Positions 7,840-43,345 of a DNA stretch of 45,433 nucleotides are shown in pieces. The notes beneath the pieces are model-generated. The model did not search any database and had not been told where the DNA came from. It was given only the letters and a program-made list of their open reading frames with translations. A program made the translations under genes and the position numbers. Within the stretch, counting starts at the first letter, position 1, and each line of letters opens with the position of its first letter. The stretch comes from a virus, in IMG/VR virus record IMGVR_UViG_3300045885_000402, positions 1-45,433 of that record; one strand, written 5' to 3'.

Positions 7840-8115
7840 GTGACAGGACCAGCCGGTTGGTATCGCTGCGCGCATTGTCAGCGGGTCATGCCGCGCGCGA
7901 GCACGAAGCAGTGGGTGAAGAGCTATTGCGACACGGCCGATCGCATCGTGCATCTGATGCGGCACACGGAGGACGACATGCCCTTGAAACGCGGGAGCTC
8001 GCAGAAAGTGATCCGGCAGAACATCCGCACGGAGATCGCGCATGGCAAACCAGCGAAGCAGGCGGTGGCGATCGCGCTCCGCACCGCCGGCGTGGCGAAG
8101 AAACGCGGCAAGTAA
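7840..8115 (+). CDS. Zinc-knuckle protein fused to a DUF6496-like domain
   Basis: 91 residues from GTG 7840. Residues 1-45 (WYRCAHCQRVMPRASTKQW, then VKSYCDTADRIVHLMR) are a known small phage zinc-binding type. Residues 47-91 (MPLKRGSSQKVIRQNI, then GKPAKQAVAIALRTAG) match DUF6496-like basic mini-proteins that normally occur alone. No stop separates the two. GGAGG at 7966-7970 lies 7 nt before Met 47 (ATG 7978), so an internal start giving the DUF6496 part alone is likely. Functions of both parts are unknown; the second half is strongly basic and may bind nucleic acid. Confidence 0.6.
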   Translation: MTGPAGWYRCAHCQRVMPRASTKQWVKSYCDTADRIVHLMRHTEDDMPLKRGSSQKVIRQNIRTEIAHGKPAKQAVAIALRTAGVAKKRGK

Positions 8116-8138: not shown

Positions 8139-8360
8139 ATGATCGACAAGCCGTATGCCTATCACGAGCCATCAGCCGAGGGGCTGGCGCGCATCACCCG
8201 CCTCCGCGAGCACTACGCGGCGGGAGAGCGGCTCATTCGCGAGGTGTGTCCGAGCTCGCGCGAGCAGTCTATTGCCATCACCAACAACGAGCAGACCGCG
8301 ATGTGGGCGGTCAAAGCGGTGGTGTTCAACGACCCCGCCTCTGTTGTGAAACGTGACTAA
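8139..8360 (+). CDS. acb2-like: Acb2-like cyclic-oligonucleotide sponge (anti-CBASS)
   Basis: 73 residues. The C-terminal half SSREQSIAITNNEQ, then TAMWAVKAVVFNDP, reproduces the hallmark of the Acb2/DUF7681 family: a SREQS-x-A-x-T helix start, an E two-turn spacing and a MWA-x-x-A helix. The N-terminal part (YHEPSAEGLARITRLREHYA) gives the YH-P-x-x-x-x-x-R pattern and first helix. Known members are small helical oligomers that bind cyclic di- and trinucleotide signals and so block CBASS-type immunity. A clean AGGAG (8128-8132) precedes ATG 8139 by 6 nt, unlike the coupled neighbours, suggesting strong independent expression. Identification is by motif memory, without a search. Confidence 0.75.
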   Translation: MIDKPYAYHEPSAEGLARITRLREHYAAGERLIREVCPSSREQSIAITNNEQTAMWAVKAVVFNDPASVVKRD

Positions 8361-8369
8361 CGCCCCCGC

Positions 8370-8465
8370 GTGAGGGACCCGTTCGTCCGGATCCTCGTGC
8401 AATCCCTGGTGCTCGTGGCGCTCGCGCTCGCGACGATGTACGCCGTCGAGTGCGCGCTCCGTTGA
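8370..8465 (+). CDS. 31-residue single-TM peptide
   Basis: GTG 8370 to TGA 8465: a short charged start (MRDPFVRI) and one hydrophobic helix (LVQSLVLVALALATMYAV) ending in ECALR. The frame directly follows the Acb2-like gene (9 bp gap). No classic Shine-Dalgarno sequence is seen. Typical of small phage membrane peptides of unknown role. Confidence 0.4.
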   Translation: MRDPFVRILVQSLVLVALALATMYAVECALR

Positions 8466-8513
8466 GTGAGCGCCCCGTCAACGTGTCGTGTCAGAGAGAA
8501 GGAGAGTTCTGCG

Positions 8514-9356
8514 ATGCCATCCAAAGTGGTTCAGATCAACGGGGTCATGACCTGGCAGGAGGAGCAGCCGAGCGTGCCGCCTCCCGTGTTCCCGACGCCT
8601 CCCATTGTGATCCCGCCTGACGCGATCGCGCCCGGCGTGCCCACGCACCCGATTGTGCTGCCACCGCCGGTGCCGACGCACCCCATCGTGATTCCGCCGA
8701 GTGCGATCGCCCCCGGCGTGCCCGCCCATCCCATCGTGCTGCCGCCGGTCTACCCGGCGCACCCGATCGTGATTCCACCGGACGCGGCCGCGCCCGGCGT
8801 GCCGTCGCATCCGATCTACCTGCCACCGTCGATCTGGCCGAGCCCCGGTCACCCGGCGCATCCGATCGTGCTGCCGCCCGACTCGATCTCGGACGGCGTG
8901 CCGACGCACCCGATTTACATCCCGGTCTTCCCCGCACATCCGATCGTGATCCCGCCGGGGTCCATCGCCCCCGGTGTGCCGACGCATCCGATCGTGCTGC
9001 CGCCGCCCGTGCCGGCGCATCCGATCGTGATTCCCCCGGATGCCATCAGCCCCGGTGTCCCCGAGCATCCGATCGTCCTGCCCCCGAGCATCTGGGGACC
9101 GACCGATCCGCGGCCCACGCCTCCGATCGTGCTGCCGCCTGACAAGCCCCAGCCGCCGCCAGGACAAGTCACGCCGCCCGCGGCCGGCGTGCCGATCCAC
9201 GGGTCGATGGTGTGGCTTGAGGGCCGCGGCTGGGTCTTTATCCCTGACGCGGTCGTGCCCATGCCGCCGGGAGGTGGGTCGGGCGAATGGACGCCGCCGG
9301 CGCAGCCACCGACCCCGACGCATCCGATTCAGCCCACGGTCCCGGAGCCGAAGTAA
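8514..9356 (+). CDS. HPIVxPP-repeat proline-rich protein
   Basis: 280 residues. A short head (MPSKVVQINGVMTWQEE) is followed by about 13 imperfect units of the kind [PAST]HPIV[LI]PP spaced by 5-20 residues (for example DAIAPGVPTHPIVLPP). The tail (GSMVWLEGRGWVFIPDAVVP) resembles the head in having a W-rich strand. Proline-rich HPI repeat proteins of this style occur in many short-tailed phages and have no assigned function. The repeats probably form an extended polyproline rod linking two small folded ends. Strong ribosome site AAGGAGAG (8499-8506). The DNA repeats also create long Gly-rich open frames on the other strand, which are not genes. Confidence 0.75.
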   Translation: MPSKVVQINGVMTWQEEQPSVPPPVFPTPPIVIPPDAIAPGVPTHPIVLPPPVPTHPIVIPPSAIAPGVPAHPIVLPPVYPAHPIVIPPDAAAPGVPSHPIYLPPSIWPSPGHPAHPIVLPPDSISDGVPTHPIYIPVFPAHPIVIPPGSIAPGVPTHPIVLPPPVPAHPIVIPPDAISPGVPEHPIVLPPSIWGPTDPRPTPPIVLPPDKPQPPPGQVTPPAAGVPIHGSMVWLEGRGWVFIPDAVVPMPPGGGSGEWTPPAQPPTPTHPIQPTVPEPK

Positions 9357-9413
9357 CCAGCGCGCGACGAAGGGTGGGCCCCGAGCCCGCCCTTCGCCCC
9401 GAGGAAGCGACCC

Positions 9414-10079
9414 ATGACGCTACGTCCTGAATTGTCCGACCTGCCCGCACGGATACGGCGGCTCCCGCTCGACGCGCGCGGCTATCCCGTGCCGTGGTTC
9501 GTGGCGTGGGAGAACGGCGTGCCCGAGTTCCGCGCGATGGACGCACGCAAGTTTGCCGACGCGATCAAGTACCGCCAGTGCTGGGTCTGCGGCGAGCCGA
9601 TGGGCGTGCACCTGTCCTTCGTCATCGGGCCGATGTGCGCGATCAACCGCACGACCTCGGAACCGCCCTGTCACCACGAGTGCGCGGTCTGGTCCGCGCG
9701 CAACTGTCCGTTCCTCACGCGGCCGCACATGGTCCGCCGGGAGGCCGGGCTGCCCGAGGACGTCCAGCACGCTGCCGGCCTGCCGATCCTGCGGAACCCG
9801 GGCGCTGTCTGCGTCTGGACCACGAGGCGCTTCGACGTGCACCGCGCCGTCGCCGGGAACGCGGGGCCGTTGCTGGCGCTCGGGTCGCCCGAGCGCGTCG
9901 AGTGGTTCGCCGAAGGCCGCCCGGCGACCCGGGCCGAGGTCGAGGCGTCCATCGACAGCGGGCTCCCGGCCTTGCACGAAGCGGCCGACCTCGAGCGGAC
10001 GGCCGTGCGGCGGGTGCAGGCGCACGCCGAGATTGAGCGCGAACGCGAGGCGGTCGCGCGGTTGTTCCCGGCGGCATGA
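9414..10079 (+). CDS. Conserved phage protein with Cys/His cluster
   Basis: 221 residues. GYPVPWFVAWENGVPEF near the start, then CWVCGEPMG, FVIGPMCAINRTTSEPPCH and CAVWSARNCPFL form a Cys/His-rich domain (residues 55-105) that should bind one or two zincs. The C-terminal half is helical. The arrangement is known from many proteobacterial phages and prophages as a hypothetical protein. Start ATG 9414; it follows the proline-rich gene by 57 bp and its stop overlaps a possible ATG at 10076. Confidence 0.7.
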   Translation: MTLRPELSDLPARIRRLPLDARGYPVPWFVAWENGVPEFRAMDARKFADAIKYRQCWVCGEPMGVHLSFVIGPMCAINRTTSEPPCHHECAVWSARNCPFLTRPHMVRREAGLPEDVQHAAGLPILRNPGAVCVWTTRRFDVHRAVAGNAGPLLALGSPERVEWFAEGRPATRAEVEASIDSGLPALHEAADLERTAVRRVQAHAEIEREREAVARLFPAA

Positions 10080-10132
10080 ATGGAAGATCGTGCGTGCCGA
10101 TCTACTCGGCCGCGTGGCCCGAGCGAGGCGTG

Positions 10133-10339
10133 ATGGCGAAGCGACGACAGGGGTTCGCGGTGCTCGATCCCGCGCGGCAGTGGGAGATCGCGAGTCAGGG
10201 TGGGAAAGCGGCGCACGCGCAGAAGGTCGCGCACCGGTGGACGTCCGCGGAGGCGGCGGCGGCCGGGCGCAAGGGCGGCCAGGCCGCGCAGCGCCGGCGG
10301 CTCGAGCGGGAGCGCACCGCGCGCACGAAGGGCGCGTGA
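10133..10339 (+). CDS. KGG-motif (GsiB-like) protein
   Basis: 68 residues from ATG 10133. GFAVLDPARQWEIASQGGKAAH and HRWTSAEAAAAGRKGGQAA are two KGG units as in bacterial stress proteins of the KGG/GsiB type. They are hydrophilic and probably disordered, followed by a basic tail. An upstream in-frame ATG 10076 overlaps the previous stop and would add 19 unlike residues. Last gene of the rightward early block before the leftward operon. Confidence 0.65.
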   Translation: MAKRRQGFAVLDPARQWEIASQGGKAAHAQKVAHRWTSAEAAAAGRKGGQAAQRRRLERERTARTKGA

Positions 10340-10398
10340 TGGTCGGCCCGCGTCAACCGTTCTCGACGAGAACAGTTGACGCCATCGCCGCCGCGCGC

Positions 10399-11145
10399 TT
10401 ATTTCGAGGCGGCGCCACGTAGACGTGCGAACCGCTTTTCCGCGGCTTGTTTGGAGATGCCCCACTGCTTGGCGCAGGCGCTCGGGGACCAGTCAAGTTT
10501 GGTGGCCTCCTGTCGCCATTGGTGAGCCTCCGGCAGCAACTTGGGTGCCTTCTGCGCGAGCTTCTTGAGCTCCTCAATGGCGGCGAGGAGCTCCTCGCGC
10601 GTGAAGCCCTCCGCCGCCGCCACGACGCGCGCGACCCGATCGCGCCACCCGTTACTGAGGTGCCGTAGCCGGGTCAGGCGGGCCTTGCGGGCGTGTTCCT
10701 CGAAACTCACGCCGGTGCGTGCGAGATACGCCGCACGATGGCCTATAGGGGCCTTCCCCTGGTTCCATCCATAGCGGGTCCAGTAGTCGGTCAGGCTCTG
10801 TGCGGCATGCGGGTGGGCCGTCGCGACGGCGTCGAGGGGCCGCCGGTAGCGCGCCTCATCCGCCCGCGTGCGATCCATCGCCGCGGCCAACGCGACCCGT
10901 TCCTCGGGTGTCACATAAAAGCGCGCGACGTCCCGCGCGTCGACCGTCTGCAGCGCGAGGAAATAATCAAATTCCCCAGGGAGGAAATGATAGGCGCCGG
11001 TGGCATCGGTGTAATCGCGCCAGTCGTTCGACTGCAACATCTCCATCGTGGCGCGCGTCAGGTCGCCGAGCCGGCCCATGTTCGGAACGGCGCGCGCAAA
11101 CCGGTCGACGTGATCGCCGTGTGTTTTGAGGGCCTTGGTACTCAT
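10399..11145 (-). CDS. HTH-tailed partner protein of the HNH-helicase
   Basis: 248 residues, coupled to the helicase gene by an ATGA overlap (11142-11145), so the pair is expressed together. The C-terminus LDWSPSACAKQWGISKQAAEKRF is a helix-turn-helix (positions 217-240). The middle is helix-rich (ARVVAAAEGFTREELLAAIEELKKL). The N-terminal 110 residues carry a WRDYTDATGAYHFLPGEFDYFLAL segment with several aromatics. I do not recognise the family. As the second gene of a two-gene leftward unit it may target the nuclease-helicase to DNA or regulate it. Confidence 0.6.
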   Translation of the reverse strand: MSTKALKTHGDHVDRFARAVPNMGRLGDLTRATMEMLQSNDWRDYTDATGAYHFLPGEFDYFLALQTVDARDVARFYVTPEERVALAAAMDRTRADEARYRRPLDAVATAHPHAAQSLTDYWTRYGWNQGKAPIGHRAAYLARTGVSFEEHARKARLTRLRHLSNGWRDRVARVVAAAEGFTREELLAAIEELKKLAQKAPKLLPEAHQWRQEATKLDWSPSACAKQWGISKQAAEKRFARLRGAASK

Positions 11146-13268
11146 GCGACGTCGTCAGGGCTCTCGGTGCGCACCCACTTGGGCAGCAGGGTGCCGGTGT
11201 CCGCGCAGTAGGTTTGGATCCGCGCCATCATCGCCAGCCACATCCGCTTCATCTGCTCGGGGCTGGCATGATCCAAGTCTCGGATGCCGGCCTGGGCCTT
11301 CATCTCGGTCATGAAATGCGACACCGGTTGCCCACCGGCGGTCGCGACTCTCCCAGCCCACCAGTTCGACGCGTGCTTGACTTTCTTGCGATACACGTCC
11401 TGATGCTCGCGTGAGGTCAACGGTCGAATGCTGTGATCTGGACGCTCGGCGACCGCCGTCGCCACGCTCCCGAAGATGGGGCGTTCGAAGGGCCGCGCCT
11501 GGTTGACCGACGTGAGCGCCTGGGCCACCCGCGGCGCCCACGATTCAGGGAGGTCCACCTTGCGCAGTTCGGGCGCGAGGGCCTCCACTAATGCCGGGTC
11601 GACATCGGCCGTGCCACTCGTGCTCACGGGGGAGACGACATCGACGGCGGGATCGCGCACGCCGATCAGGTCCTTGTCACTCCACGGCGGGGCGGACGAC
11701 GTCCGGGGCCGGTCCACGGGCGCGGCGGGTGGTGGCGCCGTGGGCACGTCGATGGTATGAACCATGGGCGCCAGGATGCCCTTGAACAGCTCCACGAGCT
11801 CCGGCACGTCGGGCAGGATGATCGCCGTGGAGAGCGGACGGGGCAGCTGGTCCTTTTCCCAGGCGGTGACCCGTTGTCCGCGGGCGACCACTTGGCGGAT
11901 GTATTGCGCGGTAACGATGTTGGTGGCGTAGGTGACCACCGCAATGTCGGGGCAGTCGTAGCCCTCGCCCGCCATGCCGACCGTGCAGAGCACGCCGACC
12001 CGCGTCTGTTTGCGAAACTGCTCCAGGCGTCGATGGCCGTCGGTGCCGTCATCCGAGACGACGCACTCGGCCAAGGGTTGGAGGTGGCGCCGCACCATTT
12101 GGCGATCCACCTCGTTGGCAAAGGCGCGCGCCATGTCCTGCCGGTGCGTCACGATGAGGGCTTTGACCGGCTTGCCTTTACTGTCGCGATGCCGCCGTTC
12201 CAACTGCGTGAGCGTGACCTCGACCATGCTCGCGATCCACGCCTCGTGCTCGGGCAGGCGGCGCAACGCGACACGCCGCGCGGCATCGTCGGTCAGGTCG
12301 GCAATCGGACTGACGATCATTTCCGCCTTCGTGAGATCGACCAGTTCCACGGTGGCCCCGACGCGGAAGAGGTCGGGGGGCCGCAGCCGCCCTTCTCGCA
12401 CGAGGCGCTCGGGATGAATCTCGTAGTCGGTGATGGCTTCAATGCGCGGCTCGCCGCCGTCGCCGAGCACATCGCGATACTTGACGGTGGAAATGCGTTC
12501 CGCCGGCGACGTGCGAAACAACGTGCCGGAGAGATTCAACACCCCGGCGACGTGCAACTCGGTGCGGAGATCCCCGACCACCTCGGCCACCGCCTTGGCC
12601 CACGCCGCCGCGTCGATTTCGCTGCGGACCGATTGTCCGAGGTGATGCACTTCATCGAGGATGACGAGCGTCGGGGTCCGGCGGACGCCGGTGCGGTGCC
12701 GGTCGCGCGCGGCGAGCAGCGCCTGGTAGGTCATGCCGATCCCGTCCATCTCCTCGAGTTCGACCCCGCTGGTCCGCGCCCCCTCGTGCGTATCGAGCGC
12801 GATGTGATAGCCCTCGAGCAGGGCGCCCTTCCATTGCTCGACGAGCGCCAGGCGTGGCACCAGGACGAGCACGCGATTCCAGAGGCCGGCGTGTTGTCCC
12901 GCGGCGAAGACGACTCCCGCGAAGAGGGTCTTGCCGGCGCCTGGGGCCGCCATCACCGTCGCGACCCGCTGCATCGATAACGCTTCCAGCACGATCGGCA
13001 GCGCGTCGCGTTGCCAGGCGAGCGGAGCCACCCGGGTGTCGCGCACGTCCAGCGCCCCATTGGTCAGGTTGCACGGCGGGCACCAGGCTTCGCCATTCTC
13101 CAAAATGGGGGGCCCCCCGTGGCTCGCGGCCCGGAGATGCGCGCAATGGAAGCTGTCGAACGTGATGGGCGTGCCGCACCGTTGGCACGTCCCGTTACTC
13201 CGTGCGAAGAGGAGGCGGCGGTCCCCGGGTTTCCAGTTGTGCAAGCGGCGAGACGTGCGAGACGACAC
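11142..13268 (-). CDS. HNH endonuclease-SF2 helicase fusion
   Basis: 708 residues. Residues 26-72 form an HNH domain: C28-x2-C31, H41/H44, HGG at 50-52, then C63-x2-C66-N67. Residues 85-500 are a superfamily 2 helicase: Walker A AAPGAGKT (107-114), DEVHH (205-209), SGT (247-249), THRQDMA (374-380), GMAGEGYDCPDIAVV (431-445) and Q455/R463/R466 of motif VI. Residues 500-708 are unassigned and may recognise the partner or substrate. GTG start with AAAGGAG about 9 nt upstream and its own promoter. It is leftward against a rightward genome, at the early/late border, as is common for accessory defence genes. Alternatives are replication restart or a mobile-nuclease derivative. Confidence 0.85.
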   Translation of the reverse strand: MSSRTSRRLHNWKPGDRRLLFARSNGTCQRCGTPITFDSFHCAHLRAASHGGPPILENGEAWCPPCNLTNGALDVRDTRVAPLAWQRDALPIVLEALSMQRVATVMAAPGAGKTLFAGVVFAAGQHAGLWNRVLVLVPRLALVEQWKGALLEGYHIALDTHEGARTSGVELEEMDGIGMTYQALLAARDRHRTGVRRTPTLVILDEVHHLGQSVRSEIDAAAWAKAVAEVVGDLRTELHVAGVLNLSGTLFRTSPAERISTVKYRDVLGDGGEPRIEAITDYEIHPERLVREGRLRPPDLFRVGATVELVDLTKAEMIVSPIADLTDDAARRVALRRLPEHEAWIASMVEVTLTQLERRHRDSKGKPVKALIVTHRQDMARAFANEVDRQMVRRHLQPLAECVVSDDGTDGHRRLEQFRKQTRVGVLCTVGMAGEGYDCPDIAVVTYATNIVTAQYIRQVVARGQRVTAWEKDQLPRPLSTAIILPDVPELVELFKGILAPMVHTIDVPTAPPPAAPVDRPRTSSAPPWSDKDLIGVRDPAVDVVSPVSTSGTADVDPALVEALAPELRKVDLPESWAPRVAQALTSVNQARPFERPIFGSVATAVAERPDHSIRPLTSREHQDVYRKKVKHASNWWAGRVATAGGQPVSHFMTEMKAQAGIRDLDHASPEQMKRMWLAMMARIQTYCADTGTLLPKWVRTESPDDVA

Positions 13269-13330
13269 AGGTTGGACTCCTTTGACGAGCAGAACAAGGG
13301 GCCGACCCAGGAATCGACGTGCCTGCGGTA

Positions 13331-13362
13331 AATTGATAGGAGCTATCGATTCGGCCTGTCAC
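13331..13362 (-). promoter_or_regulatory. Promoter and palindromic operator of the HNH-helicase operon
   Basis: On the - strand GTGACA (complement of 13357-13362) and TATCAA (complement of 13333-13338) are separated by 18 bp. A near-palindrome with 9-bp arms AATTGATAG (13331-13339) and CTATCGATT (13343-13351, one mismatch) covers the -10 and part of the spacer. Repression by a dimeric regulator is therefore likely. The start codon lies about 60 bp further on. Confidence 0.5.
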
Positions 13363-13383
13363 CGCAGTGCCGATTGAGGGCGA

Positions 13384-13417
13384 GAAGCGGGCTGTCTGCC
13401 AAAGGATGGCCCGCTTC
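13384..13417. other. Hairpin in the divergent intergenic region
   Basis: Perfect 9-bp arms GAAGCGGGC (13384-13392) and GCCCGCTTC (13409-13417) enclose a 16-nt loop. No T-run follows on either side. The gap between the helicase start and 13532 otherwise shows no gene. Confidence 0.45.
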
Positions 13418-13531
13418 GATTAGATCACCATGTCTCTCGATTTCCGTCAAGATGGGCGCGACGCAGCTGCTCGCACGCGCCCAGTGCCCATCGTCGGCGA
13501 GCGCGGGCCGTCCCGCGAGCATGAGTAAGGT

Positions 13532-13753
13532 ATGGCATCGCCTCGCGGCTACGCGAGTCTGGAGCACGACACGATCATGGCCGACCTGCTTAGCGTCGTC
13601 GGCGTGCTCTACCAAGCGACGAAGGGCAAGCCGGGGCAGGGCGAGGCGCCGTGCCCGATCTGTCGCGGCGGCGTGCTCCGCTTCTCGGTCCTGGGCCGGC
13701 AATCGGTGATCGTGGCCTGCACGACCGACAGCTGCGTTCGCATCACCAGCTAA
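13532..13753 (+). CDS. Small zinc-ribbon protein
   Basis: 73 residues from ATG 13532, or 58 from ATG 13577. CPIC and a distant C..DSC pair (ACTTDSCVRI) with beta-rich sequence between (GGVLRFSVLGRQSVIVAC) match a four-Cys zinc ribbon. It is divergent from the HNH-helicase operon and ends in a TAATG overlap with the next gene. Function unknown. Confidence 0.55.
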   Translation: MASPRGYASLEHDTIMADLLSVVGVLYQATKGKPGQGEAPCPICRGGVLRFSVLGRQSVIVACTTDSCVRITS

Positions 13754-13884
13754 TGCCCGACGACCCGCGCGCCGCCATCGACACGCGCCTCGGCGTGCTC
13801 ACCGGCCTCGTCGCCGTCTGCGTGGCCCTCCAGTTCCTGATGCTCGGGATGCTCTGGATGCTCTTCTGCGCGGACAGCGGGTGA
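13753..13884 (+). CDS. 43-residue single-TM protein
   Basis: A soluble start with MPDDPRAAIDTRLG is followed by a hydrophobic helix (VLTGLVAVCVALQFLMLG, continuing MLWMLFC) and a short end. One TM helix with a charged N-terminus. The ATG overlaps the stop of the zinc-ribbon gene. It sits immediately before the hairpin that closes the early region. Unknown role; a holin-like part is possible but unsupported. Confidence 0.5.
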   Translation: MPDDPRAAIDTRLGVLTGLVAVCVALQFLMLGMLWMLFCADSG

Positions 13885-14059: not shown

Positions 14060-14353
14060 GTGGCCCAAGGGCGAAAGACCGGAGGCCGGACGGCGGGCAC
14101 CCTCAACAGGTCGACCGCGAAGCTCAAGACGCTGCTCGACGAGGTGTTCGACGAGGCGTTCGCGTCGCCCACGTTCAAGCGGACTCTGGTCCGGCAGATC
14201 ACGACGCTCAAGATCGACCGGACGCTGCTCACGACGCTGCTGCACTACTACGCGGGCCGTCCAGCGCAGGCCGTCGACCACACCCATCGGGGCACGCTCA
14301 CGCTCGCGGAGCTGATTACGGGCGCGGTGCCCGACGCCGAGCCGGAGGAATGA
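14060..14353 (+). CDS. terS: Terminase small subunit (putative)
   Basis: 97 residues, GTG start about 40 bp after the promoter. The opening GRKTGGRTAGTLNRSTAKLK is the basic GRKxGGRxxGTxN motif common at the N-terminus of small terminase-like phage proteins. A helical region TLLDEVFDEAF to LLHYYAGRPAQ follows. TerS forms a ring that recognises phage DNA for packaging. Placement as first late gene, close to TerL, supports the call. The overall fold is short for a full TerS. Confidence 0.65.
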   Translation: MAQGRKTGGRTAGTLNRSTAKLKTLLDEVFDEAFASPTFKRTLVRQITTLKIDRTLLTTLLHYYAGRPAQAVDHTHRGTLTLAELITGAVPDAEPEE

Positions 14354-34240: not shown

Positions 34241-37200
34241 GTGGCCCAGCAGTCGTCCATCTTTGCGCCCCTGGTCGACCCGGTCGCGCCCGAGCCGGTC
34301 ACGCCCTCGCCCCTCGAGCCCGGCGGGCCGAGGCTGAAGCCCCCGCCCTCCTCGATTTTTTCCAGGCCGAGCGACGACACCGAGCTCGCGCGCACCGTGG
34401 GCGCGGCGCAGACCGCGAGCCCCGACACGGCCGCCCGGATCCTCGCCGTGCAACGCAAGACCGGCTTCCCGGGTCCGGTCATCGAGCGGAACCTGGACGC
34501 GCTCGAACGGCAGGTCGCCGCGAAGGACTTCGATGCGGCACGGGTCCGCCGGGAGAGCCCGCACCTGGCGGCCTGGCTGCAGGAGGACGCGCAGCAGGCG
34601 GCCATCGCCAATGACGACCTCGCGAACATGGGCCTGCTCGAGTGGCTGGTCACGGCGCCGCAGCGGGCGCTGAAGCGGGGCGTCGCGCAGGTGGAGTTCG
34701 GGCAGCTGCGGGCGCAGAGTCTGTTCCGCCCGCTCACGGACGCGGAGCACCGGCGGCTCGCGGGCCTGAAGGCCGAGATGGGGGCGGGGGGTGGGCTCGG
34801 GGCGCAGGACTCGTGGTTCCGGGGCGCGGTGGCTGGCGCGGCGGAGCAACTGCCGATCCTCTGGGGGGCGCTGGCGCTCGGCGCCGAGCGTGCCGCGGTG
34901 GCCGGCCCCGCCGCGGGCGCGGTGACCGCGCTGGTCGCGTCGCCGGCGTCGCCCATCACGGTCCCGCTCATGACGGCCGCCGGCCTCACCGCCGGCTTTC
35001 TCGAGGGCGGCGCGGAGTTTGGCTTCCAGCTGGAGGCCGGCCTGGCCTACGACGAGTATCTGGACGTCAAGGACGAGCTCGGGCGCACGATTGACCCGGA
35101 TGTCGCCAAGGCGGCCGCGCTGGCGACGGGCCTCGTCAACGCGGGCCTCGAGGTCGTCGGCCTCGAGCGCCTCGCCGCGCAGTTCCCGGGCGTGCGGCAA
35201 CTGAAAGGCGCCCTGTCCCGCACGGCGGTGAAGGAGGCCCTGCGGTCGCCGACCGTGCGGGCGGCCCTCGGGCAGGCCGTGAAGGCCTACGGGGGCACGC
35301 TGGCGGCCGAGACGAGCGTCGAAATGGCCCAGCGCGCGGTGACGATTCTCAGTGGCGAGATTGCCAAGGGCGTCAGCGGGGTGGAGCGACGCCCCGCCGG
35401 GGACATCGGGGCGGACGTCCTGCGGGAAGGCGTGCAGGCGGCGCAGGCGTTCTCGCTCCTGTCGGTGCCGGGCCCGGCCCTGAGCCTGCGCGCGGACGTG
35501 CGGGCGGCGCGCCAGGCCGAGCTCTCCCAGACGTTCTTCACCGCGCTCGGGGACGGCGTCACCCAATCGAAAACGGCGACGCGCCTGCCGGCGGCGCTGC
35601 AGGACTTCCTCGGGAAGGCCACCAAGGACGGCCCCCTCACGGACGTCTACGCCCCGATCGACACCTGGACGACCTACTGGCAATCGAAAAACCTCGACCC
35701 GGCGGAGATGGCCACGGAGCTCACCGGCGATCCGGAGGCCTACGTGCGCGCGCAGCAGCAGGGCACAGACCTCGTGATTCCGACCGCCGCGTATGCCACG
35801 AAACTCGCCGGGACGCCGCACAACGCCTTCTTCGCGCAGGAGCTCCGCCTCGCCCCGCACCTCCCCAACGGCCGGGAGAAAAAGGCGATCGAGGCGCGGC
35901 TCCAGGCGGCCGCCGCCGACGCCGCGCCGACGCCAGGCGAGGCCTCGCCGGCCCGTCAGGCGCTGTTGTCGGAGCTCGAGGCGCGGGGGCTCGCGCCGGA
36001 CGAAGCGGCGCGCGTGGCGGACCTCCACGCGGCGGTGATCGGCACCCTCGGCGAGCGCGCCGGCCAGACCGAGGCGGCCCTCGTCGCGGACTACCCGATC
36101 GCCGTCACACGGCCCGGCTACGAGGGGCTCGAGACCGGTCAGCCGGTCCCCGGCATTCCCGCCAGCACCGCCCCGGCGACCGAGACCCCGGAGCAACGGG
36201 GCGCGCGGCGCGCCGGCCACTATGCCGCACTGACCAGGTTTCTCGTCCGCGACGCGGTTCGGCAGGACCCGGCGGTCGATGTGGCGGCCCTCGAGGACCA
36301 GATCGCGTTCCGGCTCGCCATGCACGAGGCCGGTGTCGAGGCGATGACCGAGAGCGGCGAGGACCCCGGGAACCTGTTGCGCGCCATTGCGGAGGCCGGC
36401 GGCATCTCGACCAGCGCAGTCGAGGGGGAGTTCCGCGAGTGGGCGGAGGAGGGGTTTGACGCACGCCGGCGCGGCACGGTGCTGACGCGGGGCGGTGCAC
36501 GCACCCAGACGTTCGGCCCGCGCACGTGGCAGGGGGTGCCGGGTGTCTTCACCACCGAGGGCGTGACGCCGGAGCTCATGGCGGAGCGGCTCCGTGAGGA
36601 CCCCCGGTTCGCACACATCCTCCAGCCCAACGACCTCGCCGACGTGATCAGGGAGGCCCTCGCCCCTGACGCCGTCCAGGCGGACGTGCGCCGGCTCCCG
36701 GGCACGGCGGACCTGCCGGCGCTCGGGATCCGTCCGGGCGAACGCTGGTGGGACCAGGCCGGCCCCTCGCGCGAGGAGGCGGGTGCTGGCGAGGGGGAGC
36801 TCGGGGATGCGGTCGACACCGGCGAGGGCGACACGTCGTTCGAGTACGAACAGGGCCCCGTCGCCGAGGCCGCGACCACGGCGGCAGCGGTGCAGGACCG
36901 ACTCACCGAGGAGTTCCCCGGCGTCGAGGTGCAGCTCGTTGACCGGAGCAACAGCTACTCCGGCACGGTCTGGTATCTCGACACCATCCGCCTGCCCCCG
37001 GCGCAGCAGCGACGCGGGACCGGGACGCAGGTGATGCAGCGGCTCACGGAGATGGCGGACGCGCAGGGCGCCACGCTCGCCCTGACGCCCGACAGCAGCT
37101 TTGGGGCGAGTGTGCCGCGGCTGAAGCGGTTCTACGCCCGCTTCGGCTTCATCCCGAACCGCGGCCGTCGCGCCGACAACGCGATTACCGGCGCGATGCT

Positions 37201-40200
37201 TCGGCGGCCGGTCGCGCCGGAGACGACCAGGGCCCGTGCACGGGAGATTGTCGAGACGGTCCGCACCGCGCCACGCACCAGGTCACTCGCGGAGTTGCGC
37301 GACGCAGGGTTCGATACGTCCCGCCCGCTCTATCACCAGACCGCGCAGAGCAATGTGGCGGCGATTCTCGAGGAAGGCTTTGACCTGGGGAAAGGCCGGG
37401 CCCGCCTCACCGATGAGGGCGTACCCGACGGCGTCTTCCTGAAGCCGACGGCCGCGGACATTGGGGTCGGGGCGATGGGGGGCGAGGCCGCGCAGATCCC
37501 GGTGTATCTCCGCGCGGGAGAGACTCGCACTTTTCCGGATCGTGCCGCCCTCACGGCCTTTCTCGAGCGCGATGCCACCTATCGGGACCTGGCGGCCGAG
37601 GTGCGTCTCTACGATCGCGAGCAGGCGCGTCGGTTCGATGAGGTCGAGCGCGCCAACCGGCCATTGCCTGAGGAGCGCCGGGCCGCCGAGGCGATCCTCG
37701 ATCAGCAGGAGGCCTTCCTCAACGCATGGAAAGCGGGGCTCGTCGAACGTGCGACGGCCGCGCGCCAGCGGGCGACCGAGGTCTTGCGATCGCAGGGCAT
37801 CGACACCGTGGTCATCGAGCGCGACGCCGGCAGCTTCGGTCGGGCCACCGAAACGGTCATCGCGATGGCCGGCGATCAAATCGCCTCGGCTGATGACCCG
37901 GTGGGGCGCACGCTCTTCCAGACGGGGAACGCGGCGGCGGCGGCCGCCGCCGTCGAGAACGTCGCGGCCCTCGACGCGATGGGGCCGAAGGTCGCGGCGG
38001 CGGGCCAGTTCCCACGCCGGCGTGACCTCAAGCTCCGGATGCAGGAGGTCGTGCAGCAGGCCGCGGTGGCGGCGGGCGCCAGCCTGGACGCCGCCACGCC
38101 GGAGGGCCACGCCTACCTGGTCAACATTGCGCTGCGCGATGTGCTCACGGCACTTGAGGCCAACAGCAACGCCGTAGGCTGGTATGACGAGAAGACCCAG
38201 CAGGCCCTCGCCGTGGCGGCGCTCATCTACCCCGAGCTGAACACCGACGAAAACGCCCGGTTCGCGTTCACCTACGCCCTGGCGGTGCATTCGAACGGGT
38301 TGACAGTCGACCAGAACTTCACGATCGCGGATGCCGCGTATCGCCGGTATCGCAAGACCGGCAAGATGCCGACGCACCTCGGCATCGGCGTCGCCAGAAA
38401 GCAAATGAAGAAGGCGACGCAGCTCTTCAACGCGAAGGTCGCCGAGTATGGGCTCTCGGAGTTCCGCCGCTTCATGATGACGGAGTTCACGGTCAGCGAG
38501 CTCCGGTTGCTCGGCTTTGATGTCGCGGGCGAGGCGGCGGAGACGGTCGTCCGCGGCGCGGCGGTCATCGGCCCGAAGATCGGCAACGGGTTCTTCAGCA
38601 ACCTGAACGGCTTCTTCGATGCGCTCACCATGGACCGCTGGCTGGTCCGGACCTGGGGGCGCTGGACCGGGAAGCTGTTCTACGACACCACGGTGTTGGT
38701 GCCCGCGGGGCGCGCGCGGCTCCAGGCCGGCGTGCAGCGCCTGCTCACGGAGGACCCGCACCAGGCGGCGGCGTTCAGCACGCTCGTGGGGATCGACCTG
38801 GCGACGGTCGAGACGCCGGACGAGGTCGACGCCCTCGGGAAGACCATCCGCAAGAAGAGTGAGACGCCGGCGCGGCGGGAGGAGATGTCGGCCACGCCCC
38901 TCGCGGACGAGGTCCGCCTCGCCGGCAATAACCTGGGCGCCCATCTCGATGGGCAGAAGGAAGTCCCTGACAATCCGGAGGAGCGCAACCAGATCCGCGC
39001 CGTGTTTGACCATGTGCTGGAGCAGCTTCAGCATATCGGCTATACTGGGATGACGATCGCGGATTTGCAGGCGCTGCTCTGGTATGCGGAGCGGCGGCTG
39101 TATGACACCGGCACCTCGGAAGACGAGGTGTCGGCTGGCTACGAAGACCTCGAGGCACCGGACTATGCGAACGCGGCGAGTGCCCTCGCGCGTTCCAAGG
39201 GGATTCCGCAACATGAAATCGACGCAGCCGTTACCGGAGCTACTCGAGCAGACCGTGAATCCGTTGAGCGCGCAGGAGCTCCACGACGAGGCGTTCCTGA
39301 AGATGCCGCTGCGGCGGACGCCGGCGCAGGTCCGGAGGGACAAGCAGCTGCTCGAGGGCTTGCTCCAGCGGAACGACAAGCCTTCCTTGCGCGATTCGGC
39401 ACAGCCCCCCACCGGCGAACCGTCCACCTAACGCCGACGCTGGAACGCGAGGCGCGCAGCGATCCCGCGCACCGTCTCTACTTCCAGCCCGTTCTCGAAT
39501 ACGCCCAGCCGCGCAAAGGCCGTGGCCAGCGCGGCTTCATCAAGTTCGCCGCCGGCCGCGGCCCGCGTCGGTTCGAGATCGGGCTATTCAAAGCGGCCGA
39601 CCCGTCCACCCCGCTCCATGAGCTCGGGCACGCCTACCTCGAGATTCTCGGGGACCTCGCCGGCACCCTCGCCGCGCAGGACCAGGCGACGCTGAGTGCG
39701 ACGCAGCAGAAACTGGTCACCGACTACCAGGCGTTCCTGTCGTTCCTCGGGGTGTCGAGCCGCGACGCGATCACGACGGAGCATCACGAGAAATTTGCGC
39801 GCGCGTTCGAAACGTATCTCTTCGAAGGGAAGGCCCCGTCGGTCGAGCTCCGCTCGGCGTTCGCGTCGTTCGCCGCCTGGTTGAAGCGCGTCTACCGCTC
39901 GATCCGGGCGCTCGACGTCGAGCTCTCCCCGGAGGTGCGCGGCCTGTTCGACCGCCTCGTCGCAACCGACGAGGCGATCGCCGCGGCGCAGAGTGAGACA
40001 GCGGTGGCGCCGCTCTTCACCGACGCGCAGTCGGCCAGCATGACCGACGAGGCGTTCGCAAAGTATCAGGACGAGGTGCGCGAGGCGCACGCCCGCGAGG
40101 AGGAGACACTCCGGACGCGCGTGCTGCGGGACCTACGCCGCGCGGATCAGGCGTGGTGGCAGGCGGCCAAAGACGCTATGACGGCGAGCGTCACGGCGGA

Positions 40201-43200
40201 GCTCGAGCAGGACCCCGTCTACCGCGCCATGAGTGTGATGCGGACCGGCGCCTATCCGGACGGGACCCCGTTCGTCGAAGGCCAGGACCCGGCGGTGCCC
40301 ATCAAGCTCTCCCGTGATGCGCTCGTCGCGCAGTACGGGAAGGCGATCCTCGCGCAGCTGCCGCGGCCCTACCTCTACGCGAAAGACTCCGGCATCACCG
40401 CGGATGCCGCCGCCGAAGTGTTCGGGTTCTCGAGCGGCGACGAGCTCTTGACAGCCATCCTCGAGGCGGTGCCGTTGGACCAGGCCGTCGCGCGCGAAGT
40501 CGATCGGCGGATGCTGGCGGAGTACGGCGATGTCTTCGCGGAGGGCCGGCTCGAGGAGGAGGCGCGGCAGATTGTCCAGGGCGGGGAGCATCGGCAGCAG
40601 ATTGTCGCGGCGGAGCTCGAGGCCCTGACGCGCGGGCTCGAGCGCACGGTCGCGGGGCGCACGACGTTGACGCGCGGCTTGGCGCGCGGGGTCATCCCGC
40701 CGGCCGCGGCCATCAACGAGATGGCCAGGAAACAGATTGCCGCCACGAAGATACGCGACCTGCGGCCGGGGCTGTTCCTGCAGGCGGCGCGGCGCGCGTC
40801 CCAGGCGGCGTATGACGCCCTCGCGATTCGACACGATCGCGCCGGCGCGGTGCAGGCGAAGCTGCAGGAGCTCATTAACCTGGCGCTCTACCGCGAGGCG
40901 CGCGAGACGCAGGACCGGGTCGAGTCGATGCGCCGGACGTTGCGCGGGTATCAGTCCACCGCGGCGCGGCAACGGTTCGGGAAAGCCGGCGCGGACTACC
41001 TCACGCAGATCGATGCCCTGCTCGATCGCTACGAGCTCGCCCGCGTCACGCAGAAAGCGCTCGCCGGGCGCGTCACGCTGGACGCCTTCGTCAAGGCGCA
41101 GCAGGCGGAGAACATCCCGATCGAGATTCCCCAGACGCTGCTCGATGAGGCCCGGCGCATCAACTATCTCGACGTGCCCGTCGGTGAGTTCACCGACGTG
41201 TATGACGCCGTCGAACACCTCGCCCGGCTCGCGCGGCTGAAGAACGAGCTCCTGAAGTCCGCGAAGAAGCGCACGTTTGAGGAGGCACGCGACACCTTCG
41301 TTGGCTCCATCCGGCTCCACAACGACGTGCAACCGACACGGGTCGAGTTCCGGCCGTCCGAGGAGAAGTGGGAGACGATCGGCGACTGGTTCGCCGCGCA
41401 CACGAAGCTGTCGATCCACGCGCGCGTGCTCGATGGGTCCCAGGACGGCGGCGAGGCGTGGGAGCAGCTCGTCCGGCCGATCAACGAGGCGGGGGACGCC
41501 GAGGCCGTCATGCGCGAGGCGGCCATCCACGCGATGCTGGCGCTGTTCACCAAGGCGTATCCCGGCCGCGAGCTGATGCGGCTGAACCAGAAGCTCTTCA
41601 TCAAGGAGATCGGGACGAGCCTCTCGAAAGAGGGGCGGCTGCTGGTGGCGCTGAACTGGGGCAACGAGGACAACCGGCAGCGGCTGCTCAACGATCCCAA
41701 ACGCCAGTGGAACGCCGCGCAGATCCACGCCATCCTCGAGACACTCGACCGCCGCGATTGGGAATTCGTGCAAGGCGTCTGGGATTACCTCGACACCTTC
41801 TGGCCGGCGATTGCGGCGAAGCAGCAACGGGTCACCGGGTTGACGCCGGAGAAGGTCGTCGCCTCACCAGTCGACACGAAATACGGCCAGTTCCGCGGGG
41901 GGTATTTCCCGATCAAATACGACCCTCGCCTCACCGCGCGCGCCGGCGTGCTGCAGGAGACGGGCGAGGCCACGCTGAAAACCTTCGCGGCCTATGTCTC
42001 GGCGACGACGCGCCGCGGGCATGTGGAGGCGCGCCAGCAGAACGTCAAGATGGCGCTGCGGCTCGATTTCTCCGTGCTGTTCAATCACGTCGATCAGGTC
42101 ATTCACGACCTCACGCACCACGAAATGCTGATCGATGTGAATCGCCTGCTCGAGGACCGCGAGGTGCAGGCGGCGATCGTCGACACGCGCGGGCACCAGG
42201 TCTACCGGCAACTCGTCAGGGCGGTCGAAGACGTGGCGATCGGCGCCGCGCCGGCGAAAAACATCCTCGAGAAAGCCGCCAATTTTGCGCGGGGTGGCAC
42301 GCAGGTCGCCCTGCTCGGCCTGAACTTCTGGACCGCGCTGCAGCAACCGCTCGGGCTATTCAACGGCATGTCGCGCGTCGGGCCCGTCTGGGTGCTGCGC
42401 GGGTTGAAACGCTGGCTGCGCGATGCGGCGACGATGGAGTCCACGCTGACCTGGATCCATCAGCAGTCGCCCTACATGAAAGACCGGGCCACCGGCGGCG
42501 GCACGCAGGACCTGCAGGACCTGCGGGCGACGCTCTCACGACCGGGCGGCTGGTTCGATGGCCTGGTGCGGACCGTCACGCAGGACCACGTCACGCAGCA
42601 GAACATTCTCAATTCCTTCCTGTGGCACATCGGCCAGGCGCAGAAGGTGGCGGACGTGCCCACGTGGCTGGGCGCCTATGAGAAACACATGGCGCAGGGG
42701 CAGCCGGAAGCGCGGGCGATCGCGCTCGCCGACCAGGCGGTCCGCGAGTCGCAGGGGAGTGGCCGCATTGCCGACCTGGCGGAGGTCCAGCGGGGCACGC
42801 CGATCGCGAAGCTGTTCATGACGTTCTACAGCTACGGCAGCACCCTCTTCAATGCGACGGTCGAGGTCTACCACCGGACGGAACCCTCGCTGAGGCGGCC
42901 GGGGAACGTGGCCGCCTTCATCGGACACCTCTCGCTGCTCTATGCGTTCCCCGCCCTCGGGACGGTGCTGTTGTCACGGGCGTTCGGCCGGACCGGCGGG
43001 GACGACGACGAGTCGTTCGTCCTTGAGTTCGGGAAAGAGATGTTGTCGGCCGCGCTCAATACGATGGTGTTCGTGCGCGAGCTCGGCGGCCTGCTGAACG
43101 AGGGCGTGCGCGGCTACGCCGGCCCGGCGGGCACGCGGCTCGCGCAAGCGTTCTACACCCTGGGCCAACAGATCAAACAGGGGGAGATCGACGAGGCCCT

Positions 43201-43345
43201 CGTCGCCGCGTCCCTGACGGTCGCGGGCATCCTCTGGCGGTTCCCGGCGGCGCAGGTGCAACGGACGGTCGATGGGTTCGTGGCGCTCCAAGAAGGCCGC
43301 ACCCGCAATCCTGCGGCGCTGCTCGTCGGGCCGCCCCGCGACTAA
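34241..43345 (+). CDS. Giant polyvalent internal virion protein (gp16 position)
   Basis: 3034 residues from GTG 34241. Residues ~197-260 are a hydrophobic, Ala/Gly-rich segment that may cross a membrane. Residues ~885-990 are GNAT-like (GTVWYLDTIRLP, RRGTGTQVMQRL at ~922). ~1030-1220 is ADP-ribosyltransferase-like (PLYHQTAQSNVAAILEEGF, then VVIERD). ~1227-1474 matches a DUF7178-like polyvalent segment. A zincin motif HELGH (H1793, E1794, H1797) is followed by EKFARAFETYLF, a likely third ligand. The C-terminal ~700 residues are the conserved helical ejection module. Such proteins travel with the DNA and their domains act in the new host. The frame between 39212 and 39430 has atypical codon bias and contains a second gene. 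Confidence 0.88.
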   Translation: MAQQSSIFAPLVDPVAPEPVTPSPLEPGGPRLKPPPSSIFSRPSDDTELARTVGAAQTASPDTAARILAVQRKTGFPGPVIERNLDALERQVAAKDFDAARVRRESPHLAAWLQEDAQQAAIANDDLANMGLLEWLVTAPQRALKRGVAQVEFGQLRAQSLFRPLTDAEHRRLAGLKAEMGAGGGLGAQDSWFRGAVAGAAEQLPILWGALALGAERAAVAGPAAGAVTALVASPASPITVPLMTAAGLTAGFLEGGAEFGFQLEAGLAYDEYLDVKDELGRTIDPDVAKAAALATGLVNAGLEVVGLERLAAQFPGVRQLKGALSRTAVKEALRSPTVRAALGQAVKAYGGTLAAETSVEMAQRAVTILSGEIAKGVSGVERRPAGDIGADVLREGVQAAQAFSLLSVPGPALSLRADVRAARQAELSQTFFTALGDGVTQSKTATRLPAALQDFLGKATKDGPLTDVYAPIDTWTTYWQSKNLDPAEMATELTGDPEAYVRAQQQGTDLVIPTAAYATKLAGTPHNAFFAQELRLAPHLPNGREKKAIEARLQAAAADAAPTPGEASPARQALLSELEARGLAPDEAARVADLHAAVIGTLGERAGQTEAALVADYPIAVTRPGYEGLETGQPVPGIPASTAPATETPEQRGARRAGHYAALTRFLVRDAVRQDPAVDVAALEDQIAFRLAMHEAGVEAMTESGEDPGNLLRAIAEAGGISTSAVEGEFREWAEEGFDARRRGTVLTRGGARTQTFGPRTWQGVPGVFTTEGVTPELMAERLREDPRFAHILQPNDLADVIREALAPDAVQADVRRLPGTADLPALGIRPGERWWDQAGPSREEAGAGEGELGDAVDTGEGDTSFEYEQGPVAEAATTAAAVQDRLTEEFPGVEVQLVDRSNSYSGTVWYLDTIRLPPAQQRRGTGTQVMQRLTEMADAQGATLALTPDSSFGASVPRLKRFYARFGFIPNRGRRADNAITGAMLRRPVAPETTRARAREIVETVRTAPRTRSLAELRDAGFDTSRPLYHQTAQSNVAAILEEGFDLGKGRARLTDEGVPDGVFLKPTAADIGVGAMGGEAAQIPVYLRAGETRTFPDRAALTAFLERDATYRDLAAEVRLYDREQARRFDEVERANRPLPEERRAAEAILDQQEAFLNAWKAGLVERATAARQRATEVLRSQGIDTVVIERDAGSFGRATETVIAMAGDQIASADDPVGRTLFQTGNAAAAAAAVENVAALDAMGPKVAAAGQFPRRRDLKLRMQEVVQQAAVAAGASLDAATPEGHAYLVNIALRDVLTALEANSNAVGWYDEKTQQALAVAALIYPELNTDENARFAFTYALAVHSNGLTVDQNFTIADAAYRRYRKTGKMPTHLGIGVARKQMKKATQLFNAKVAEYGLSEFRRFMMTEFTVSELRLLGFDVAGEAAETVVRGAAVIGPKIGNGFFSNLNGFFDALTMDRWLVRTWGRWTGKLFYDTTVLVPAGRARLQAGVQRLLTEDPHQAAAFSTLVGIDLATVETPDEVDALGKTIRKKSETPARREEMSATPLADEVRLAGNNLGAHLDGQKEVPDNPEERNQIRAVFDHVLEQLQHIGYTGMTIADLQALLWYAERRLYDTGTSEDEVSAGYEDLEAPDYANAASALARSKGIPQHEIDAAVTGATRADRESVERAGAPRRGVPEDAAAADAGAGPEGQAAARGLAPAERQAFLARFGTAPHRRTVHLTPTLEREARSDPAHRLYFQPVLEYAQPRKGRGQRGFIKFAAGRGPRRFEIGLFKAADPSTPLHELGHAYLEILGDLAGTLAAQDQATLSATQQKLVTDYQAFLSFLGVSSRDAITTEHHEKFARAFETYLFEGKAPSVELRSAFASFAAWLKRVYRSIRALDVELSPEVRGLFDRLVATDEAIAAAQSETAVAPLFTDAQSASMTDEAFAKYQDEVREAHAREEETLRTRVLRDLRRADQAWWQAAKDAMTASVTAELEQDPVYRAMSVMRTGAYPDGTPFVEGQDPAVPIKLSRDALVAQYGKAILAQLPRPYLYAKDSGITADAAAEVFGFSSGDELLTAILEAVPLDQAVAREVDRRMLAEYGDVFAEGRLEEEARQIVQGGEHRQQIVAAELEALTRGLERTVAGRTTLTRGLARGVIPPAAAINEMARKQIAATKIRDLRPGLFLQAARRASQAAYDALAIRHDRAGAVQAKLQELINLALYREARETQDRVESMRRTLRGYQSTAARQRFGKAGADYLTQIDALLDRYELARVTQKALAGRVTLDAFVKAQQAENIPIEIPQTLLDEARRINYLDVPVGEFTDVYDAVEHLARLARLKNELLKSAKKRTFEEARDTFVGSIRLHNDVQPTRVEFRPSEEKWETIGDWFAAHTKLSIHARVLDGSQDGGEAWEQLVRPINEAGDAEAVMREAAIHAMLALFTKAYPGRELMRLNQKLFIKEIGTSLSKEGRLLVALNWGNEDNRQRLLNDPKRQWNAAQIHAILETLDRRDWEFVQGVWDYLDTFWPAIAAKQQRVTGLTPEKVVASPVDTKYGQFRGGYFPIKYDPRLTARAGVLQETGEATLKTFAAYVSATTRRGHVEARQQNVKMALRLDFSVLFNHVDQVIHDLTHHEMLIDVNRLLEDREVQAAIVDTRGHQVYRQLVRAVEDVAIGAAPAKNILEKAANFARGGTQVALLGLNFWTALQQPLGLFNGMSRVGPVWVLRGLKRWLRDAATMESTLTWIHQQSPYMKDRATGGGTQDLQDLRATLSRPGGWFDGLVRTVTQDHVTQQNILNSFLWHIGQAQKVADVPTWLGAYEKHMAQGQPEARAIALADQAVRESQGSGRIADLAEVQRGTPIAKLFMTFYSYGSTLFNATVEVYHRTEPSLRRPGNVAAFIGHLSLLYAFPALGTVLLSRAFGRTGGDDDESFVLEFGKEMLSAALNTMVFVRELGGLLNEGVRGYAGPAGTRLAQAFYTLGQQIKQGEIDEALVAASLTVAGILWRFPAAQVQRTVDGFVALQEGRTRNPAALLVGPPRD
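39213..39431 (+). CDS. Nested gene overprinted inside the giant protein gene
   Basis: 72 residues in the +1 frame of the giant ORF. ATG 39213 has AAGGGGA (39197-39203) 9 nt upstream. The protein is a normal-looking helical one (LLEQTVNPLSAQELHDEAF, then RRTPAQVRRDKQLLEGLLQ). My count gives G or C at third position in 64 of 72 codons (89%), against 31 of 72 (43%) for the giant frame over the same bases. So the nested frame carries the codon bias here, and the bias flips exactly at its start and stop. The giant frame in this stretch reads as an R/A/G-rich linker. Either an overprinted gene or a compensating frameshift pair. Family unknown. Confidence 0.55.
   Translation: MKSTQPLPELLEQTVNPLSAQELHDEAFLKMPLRRTPAQVRRDKQLLEGLLQRNDKPSLRDSAQPPTGEPST

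Follow-up and report, generated by a model that had tools for sequence, protein, structure and literature searches.

An HNH–SF2 helicase and its adjoining partner protein: a two-gene cargo cassette of temperate phages with a possible role against other phages

Translocases of the RadD (E. coli YejH)/XPB type have an SF2 core in common with HEL, the phage helicase considered here. RadD belongs to the host, where it is linked to RecA and SSB; HEL differs from it in its N-terminal HNH domain, its other C-terminus and its obligate partner, PAR. Both HEL and the restriction translocases of types I, III and ISP (HsdR, LlaBIII, ResIII) combine a ResIII-family motor with a further nuclease domain. However, no methyltransferase or specificity subunit accompanies the pair studied here, the nuclease domain is of the HNH type, and the partner is unrelated by profile.

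The pair formed by a helicase and a DUF2290 protein is a defence system carried by prophages and satellites (PMC9122126), and HEL-PAR resembles it as two-gene, prophage-carried accessory cargo. PAR, however, has no DUF2290 match above the Pfam cut-off, the HNH domain is fused in HEL, and the defensive role of HEL-PAR is one that we infer. Prophages carry defence genes close to their integration and immunity functions, as is the case for the likewise two-gene units lambda RexAB, CarolAnn gp43/44 and Sbash gp30/31 (PMC6426606, PMC6426596). These are proposed to act via a membrane protein, whereas HEL and PAR are predicted to form a DNA motor pair.

The same gene order, coupling and helicase family are encountered in PIS_093/094 of Saccharomonospora phage PIS 136 and in many IMG/VR phages, designated here class a. 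This class differs in the partner C-terminus, in its site (mostly a replication module), in an Asp-His HNH motif and in the occasional loss of the HNH domain. The class a combination of an HNH-SF2 helicase and a P0001-like partner is without a name in databases, and no description of the HEL-PAR pair was found in the open-access literature.

The pair lies in a viral DNA stretch of 45,433 nucleotides (the window; positions 1 to 45,433 of IMG/VR record IMGVR_UViG_3300045885_000402). We interpret HEL-PAR as a cargo cassette of prophages that descends from a replication helicase–partner pair and most likely acts against other phages, a reading to which we assign a probability of roughly 0.45.

HEL (11142..13268, minus strand) is an intact open reading frame of 708 aa with a GTG start and AAGGAG approximately 10 nt upstream of it. 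The HNH domain (residues 28–71) is followed by the SF2 helicase (residues ~80–500, RadD/XPB/HsdR-like) and a C-terminal region of ~180 residues. Matches above the Pfam cut-offs were obtained for HNH (PF01844, residues 28–71, E 1.9e-6), ResIII (PF04851, residues 82–225, E 4.6e-12) and DEAD (PF00270). Walker A (GKT), DExH, SAT/SGT, motif V and motif VI (Q..R..R) are all present, as expected of an SF2 helicase (ResIII/DEAH, RadD/XPB-like). The corresponding residues (K113, D205/E206/H208, S247/G248/T249, Q459/R463/R466) occupy the SF2 motif places and are conserved in class b, the class to which the window pair belongs. The HNH residues C28, C31, H44, C63, C66 and N67 are also present and conserved in relatives. 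The HNH domain and complete SF2 helicase proposed in a preliminary description of this DNA are thus confirmed, as is its unassigned C-terminus, no family being matched by residues ~530–700. For the AlphaFold2 model of HEL (pLDDT 86, pTM 0.83), the nearest solved structure is E. coli RadD (Foldseek E 7e-13), which is the top PDB match by sequence and by fold; HsdR and the type ISP enzyme LlaBIII are matched as well.

In HNH enzymes, the Asp just before the catalytic His binds metal. This position (43) is occupied by Ala or Ser in 17 of the 17 class b proteins with data and by Asp in 47 of 66 class a proteins. Class b retains the four Cys, H44 and N67, as well as N58 in 16 of 17 proteins. Since the usual Asp is lacking, nuclease activity of the class b domain is uncertain from its residues; conservation of His44 argues against simple decay. 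In 11 of 66 class a helicases the HNH domain is missing, and the profile match begins only at the helicase. The constant unit is therefore the helicase with its partner and, given also the absence of Asp in class b, a nuclease effector is not assured. HNH-less class a helicases accompanied by the partner occur, for example, in L191, L194, L199 and L201.

PAR (10399..11145, minus strand; 248 aa) comprises an N-terminal domain with a WRxY...EFDYFL motif and an HTH-like C-terminal tail. It yielded nothing above cut-off in Pfam, PHROGs, PADLOC and NCBIfam and no match among PDB sequences, and its AlphaFold2 model (pLDDT 81) had no significant PDB fold match in Foldseek, in agreement with the earlier statement that it belongs to no known family. 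The HTH character proposed for the tail is tentative: the Myb_DNA-bind_8 match is below the Pfam cut-off, a sigma-4-like Foldseek match has probability 0.6 but E ~2, and the tail is missing from several relatives. An annexin match of the class a partner profile (E 0.02) was judged to be due to chance.

The HEL stop and PAR start overlap in ATGA (11142..11145, minus strand), and the translational coupling suggested earlier may be inferred from this arrangement. An NTGA overlap recurs in 11 of 17 other class b pairs and 26 of 66 class a pairs; the remaining pairs mostly overlap or stand a few nucleotides apart. The first search with HEL gave ten viral loci whose helicase was complete or nearly so, with PAR adjoining in 10 of 10, mostly with a start-stop overlap and amid differing surrounding genes. 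Class a was found by wider HEL searches and with HMMs built in this analysis. The non-redundant pairs tabulated number 66 in class a and, besides the window, 18 in class b; most records compared are metagenomic fragments, and the wider genome search for HEL relatives drew from among the matches listed. Every class b pair has PAR immediately 3′ of its helicase. When the class a partner served as the only query of a reciprocal search, HEL stood directly upstream in 54 of the 66 loci obtained, and several of the others are contig ends. HEL and PAR thus constitute a near-obligate two-gene unit. The single-gene reading of HEL was ruled out, since the partner is nearly always adjacent. The linkage, together with the sites of class b, contradicts the pattern which the preliminary description had named as opposing its reading, namely a helicase always single, always in replication modules and with no partner.

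Class b and the window form a single clade (support 0.995) in a helicase tree of 85 tips. The class a partner, typified by PIS_094 (P0001), and the class b partner have profiles with a remote N-terminal resemblance (hhalign E 3e-4, probability 40%). The helicase–partner pair is also present on at least three Streptomyces plasmids. In two further ones, which are linear (L258:5995-9320 and L259:5995-9321), an HNH-SF2 helicase is followed by a partner of 424–426 aa that has the N-terminal domain of the class a partner (E ~2e-10) and represents a third partner form. Two kinds of candidate were set aside. A one-ORF HEL-PAR "fusion" in a Kutzneria genome (L018:7773-10613) resembled a Rosetta-stone case, but it has degenerate HNH residues and a junction that reads out of frame, so it is likely a decayed copy and is not counted as evidence for HEL-PAR contact. 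SF2 helicases of Microbacterium and other actinobacteria among the matches listed align only from about residue 84, lack HNH and were left out.

The cargo character of the pair is derived from presence/absence comparisons. In the window, it is contained in an accessory block of ~5.7 kb (8139..13884, no strand assigned) between the gene at 7888–8115 and TerS at 14060. These two genes are ~5.9 kb apart and enclose the pair with several small genes, whereas in the nearest relatives by terminase (L214, L215 and L216; TerL 78% identical) their homologues are ~0.4 kb apart. HEL was not detected anywhere in these three records, one of which is 49.9 kb long. In another phage (L262), the pair is reversed within a co-directional early module, and three records with homologous flanks (L263–L265) are without it. 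Presence and absence are thereby seen in two independent lineages; no empty-site relatives of the L005 phage were found. The conclusion that HEL-PAR is removable cargo of temperate phages is well supported.

A 4.3-kb contig (L011/L213; ~99–100% protein identity to the window), which extends from the HEL start into TerL, represents another, nearly identical phage that shares this junction. The accessory block further encodes a 280-aa protein (8514–9356) with Pro-rich HPIVxPP-type repeats and DNA periods of 51–81 bp. A small KGG-motif protein (PF10685) is encoded at 10076–10339, adjoining the pair, and is resembled by a small basic ORF at 480–656. The late region contains one ORF of 3034 aa (34241–43345), whose product is probably a virion or injected protein of very large size.

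The window pair is on the minus strand and the flanking genes are on the plus strand, so the reversed orientation noted earlier is borne out; the position at the early/late border applies to the window phage and is not a family trait. Other class b pairs are also usually opposite in strand to flanking lytic genes, as judged from rough gene calls on GC-rich contigs. Among 50 proteins neighbouring class b pairs, 7 match the integrase family, and others are repressors, endolysins and terminases. Of the 9 class b records that have an integrase or resolvase, 7 have it at most about 3 kb from HEL; among the class a records with PF00589 the count is 0 of 7 (one-sided Fisher ~0.003, calculated by hand from small numbers and approximate coordinates). 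No clear defence island surrounds class b pairs: the PADLOC scan of neighbours revealed scattered methylases and regulators.

A conserved leader, which could comprise the promoter and operator of the cassette, was recognized upstream of HEL by alignment with L094, L096 and L097 (13290..13425, minus strand). About 100 bases are conserved in these four records with a mean column identity of 72%. In the whole viral collection, the core pattern was found in only four records, 4 of 4 carrying HEL. The leader contains an inverted repeat, GAAGCGGGC-N16-GCCCGCTTC (13384..13417, minus strand; arms 13384–13392 and 13409–13417), whose arms covary in relatives (GAAGCGGGC/GCCCGCTTC to GAAACGG/CCGTTTC) and whose RNA fold has a z of -3.0 in the window. 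In L095 the leader is not evident, and HEL is close behind the integrase. The private promoter and palindromic operator of the preliminary description are retained in part. A different inverted repeat stands in the conserved leader; the GATAG-GAG-CTATC palindrome was rejected as operator, being not conserved among relatives, and a scan for promoters of the sigma-70-like type found none upstream of HEL. At the other end of the cassette, a near-perfect 33-bp palindrome, GCGTCAACCGTTCTCG-A-CGAGAACAGTTGACGC (10350–10382), separates the KGG gene from PAR, which converge here. It could be either a bidirectional terminator or a putative binding site. Palindromes of similar form and different sequence are found 3′ of PAR in L094 and L097.

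Taken with the known placement of prophage defence genes near integration and immunity functions, this cargo anatomy makes defence the best single reading of the pair. HEL would act as a dsDNA translocase or helicase of the RadD/HsdR kind, its HNH domain binding or nicking DNA. PAR could hold HEL via the conserved N-terminal domain, while its variable C-terminal domain could supply DNA recognition or regulation. Expressed from the prophage in this model, the two proteins would form a complex that attacks or blocks superinfecting phage DNA, probably at replication or recombination intermediates. The cassette was most likely recruited from a class a helicase–partner pair, because the sister lineages sit in replication modules. 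The earlier reading is supported in part, as regards the two-gene unit with its leader, the partner of no known family and the removable cargo. PADLOC lends defence nothing beyond the helicase core: in PADLOC-DB (BREX, DISARM, Dpd, type I RM and others), HEL produced partial helicase-core matches only (best 30 bits). Membership of a known defence family was rejected, the PADLOC, NCBIfam and Pfam matches being at domain level only.

The sites of class a make a replication or recombination accessory a serious rival to defence. PAR could recognize a DNA site or structure and load or regulate the helicase, which would open an origin or remodel forks and recombination intermediates in phage replication or prophage maintenance; HNH would nick DNA or only bind it. 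Class a pairs are mostly situated within phage replication/recombination modules, their neighbours being replication initiators, primosomal proteins, exonucleases, RecT, DnaB and primase/helicases. In G013, G022 and G025 they directly adjoin, and are co-oriented with, DnaB or AAA_25 genes. Some have a different setting; in L111 and L134, for instance, they follow lysis genes. The ancestry of the family therefore points to DNA replication or recombination. With these modules, the similarity to RadD, which accelerates RecA strand exchange (PMC8887467), and the HNH domain dispensable in class a, such a role stays close. It is also favoured by the pairs on Streptomyces plasmids, the linear ones being reported with a rep1/rep2 helicase replicon (PMC13152386). 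However, the window pair and most class b pairs are outside a replication module, within which many class a pairs lie, and class b is mostly on the opposite strand and is dispensable in two lineages. The window phage has a separate O-like replication initiator elsewhere, so HEL-PAR is not its sole replication initiator. No iteron array was detected in or near the pair in the five loci tested (window, L013, L095, L144 and L145), and a linear-plasmid Rep1/Rep2-type replicon with iterons was rejected on this ground. A replication or recombination function is possible, though less likely than defence, and is the main rival reading.

Alternatively, the pair could serve lysogenic conversion or regulation other than defence (excision control, stability of the prophage or counter-defence to restriction by the host) through a DNA-bound helicase complex. 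The adjacent integrases and repressors are consistent with this, particularly in L095 and L102, where the pair is co-directional and almost contiguous with the integrase, and so is the conserved leader with its inverted repeat. On the other hand, close linkage to integrase is missing in class a, ~6 kb separate the window pair from its own integrase, which is on the other strand, and an ATP-driven helicase with HNH would be an unusual regulator; we regard this explanation as improbable. A selfish HNH homing cassette, its spread aided by helicase and partner, would account for the HNH domain and the patchy presence in otherwise syntenic phages, but is very improbable, as helicase and partner persist in the 11 class a cases without HNH, no conserved gene was seen to be interrupted by the cassette, and insertion sites vary between phages.

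The anti-phage reading of HEL-PAR can be extended, tentatively and at less than even odds, to the family. Phage replication machinery would have been recruited for an anti-phage system expressed from prophages. The SF2 motor and the partner would be its constant parts, HNH would be optional or modified, and the variable C-terminal domain of the partner would set the DNA target; the window pair would be the first described member of the family. The helicase–partner unit recurs in many phages and in some actinobacterial plasmids, and the partner family is without a profile in the libraries searched. Its two classes offer a testable case, either of phage replication proteins that became a weapon of the prophage or of an undescribed replication/recombination accessory. 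Whichever holds, dozens of phage gene pairs that now lack annotation would gain a function.
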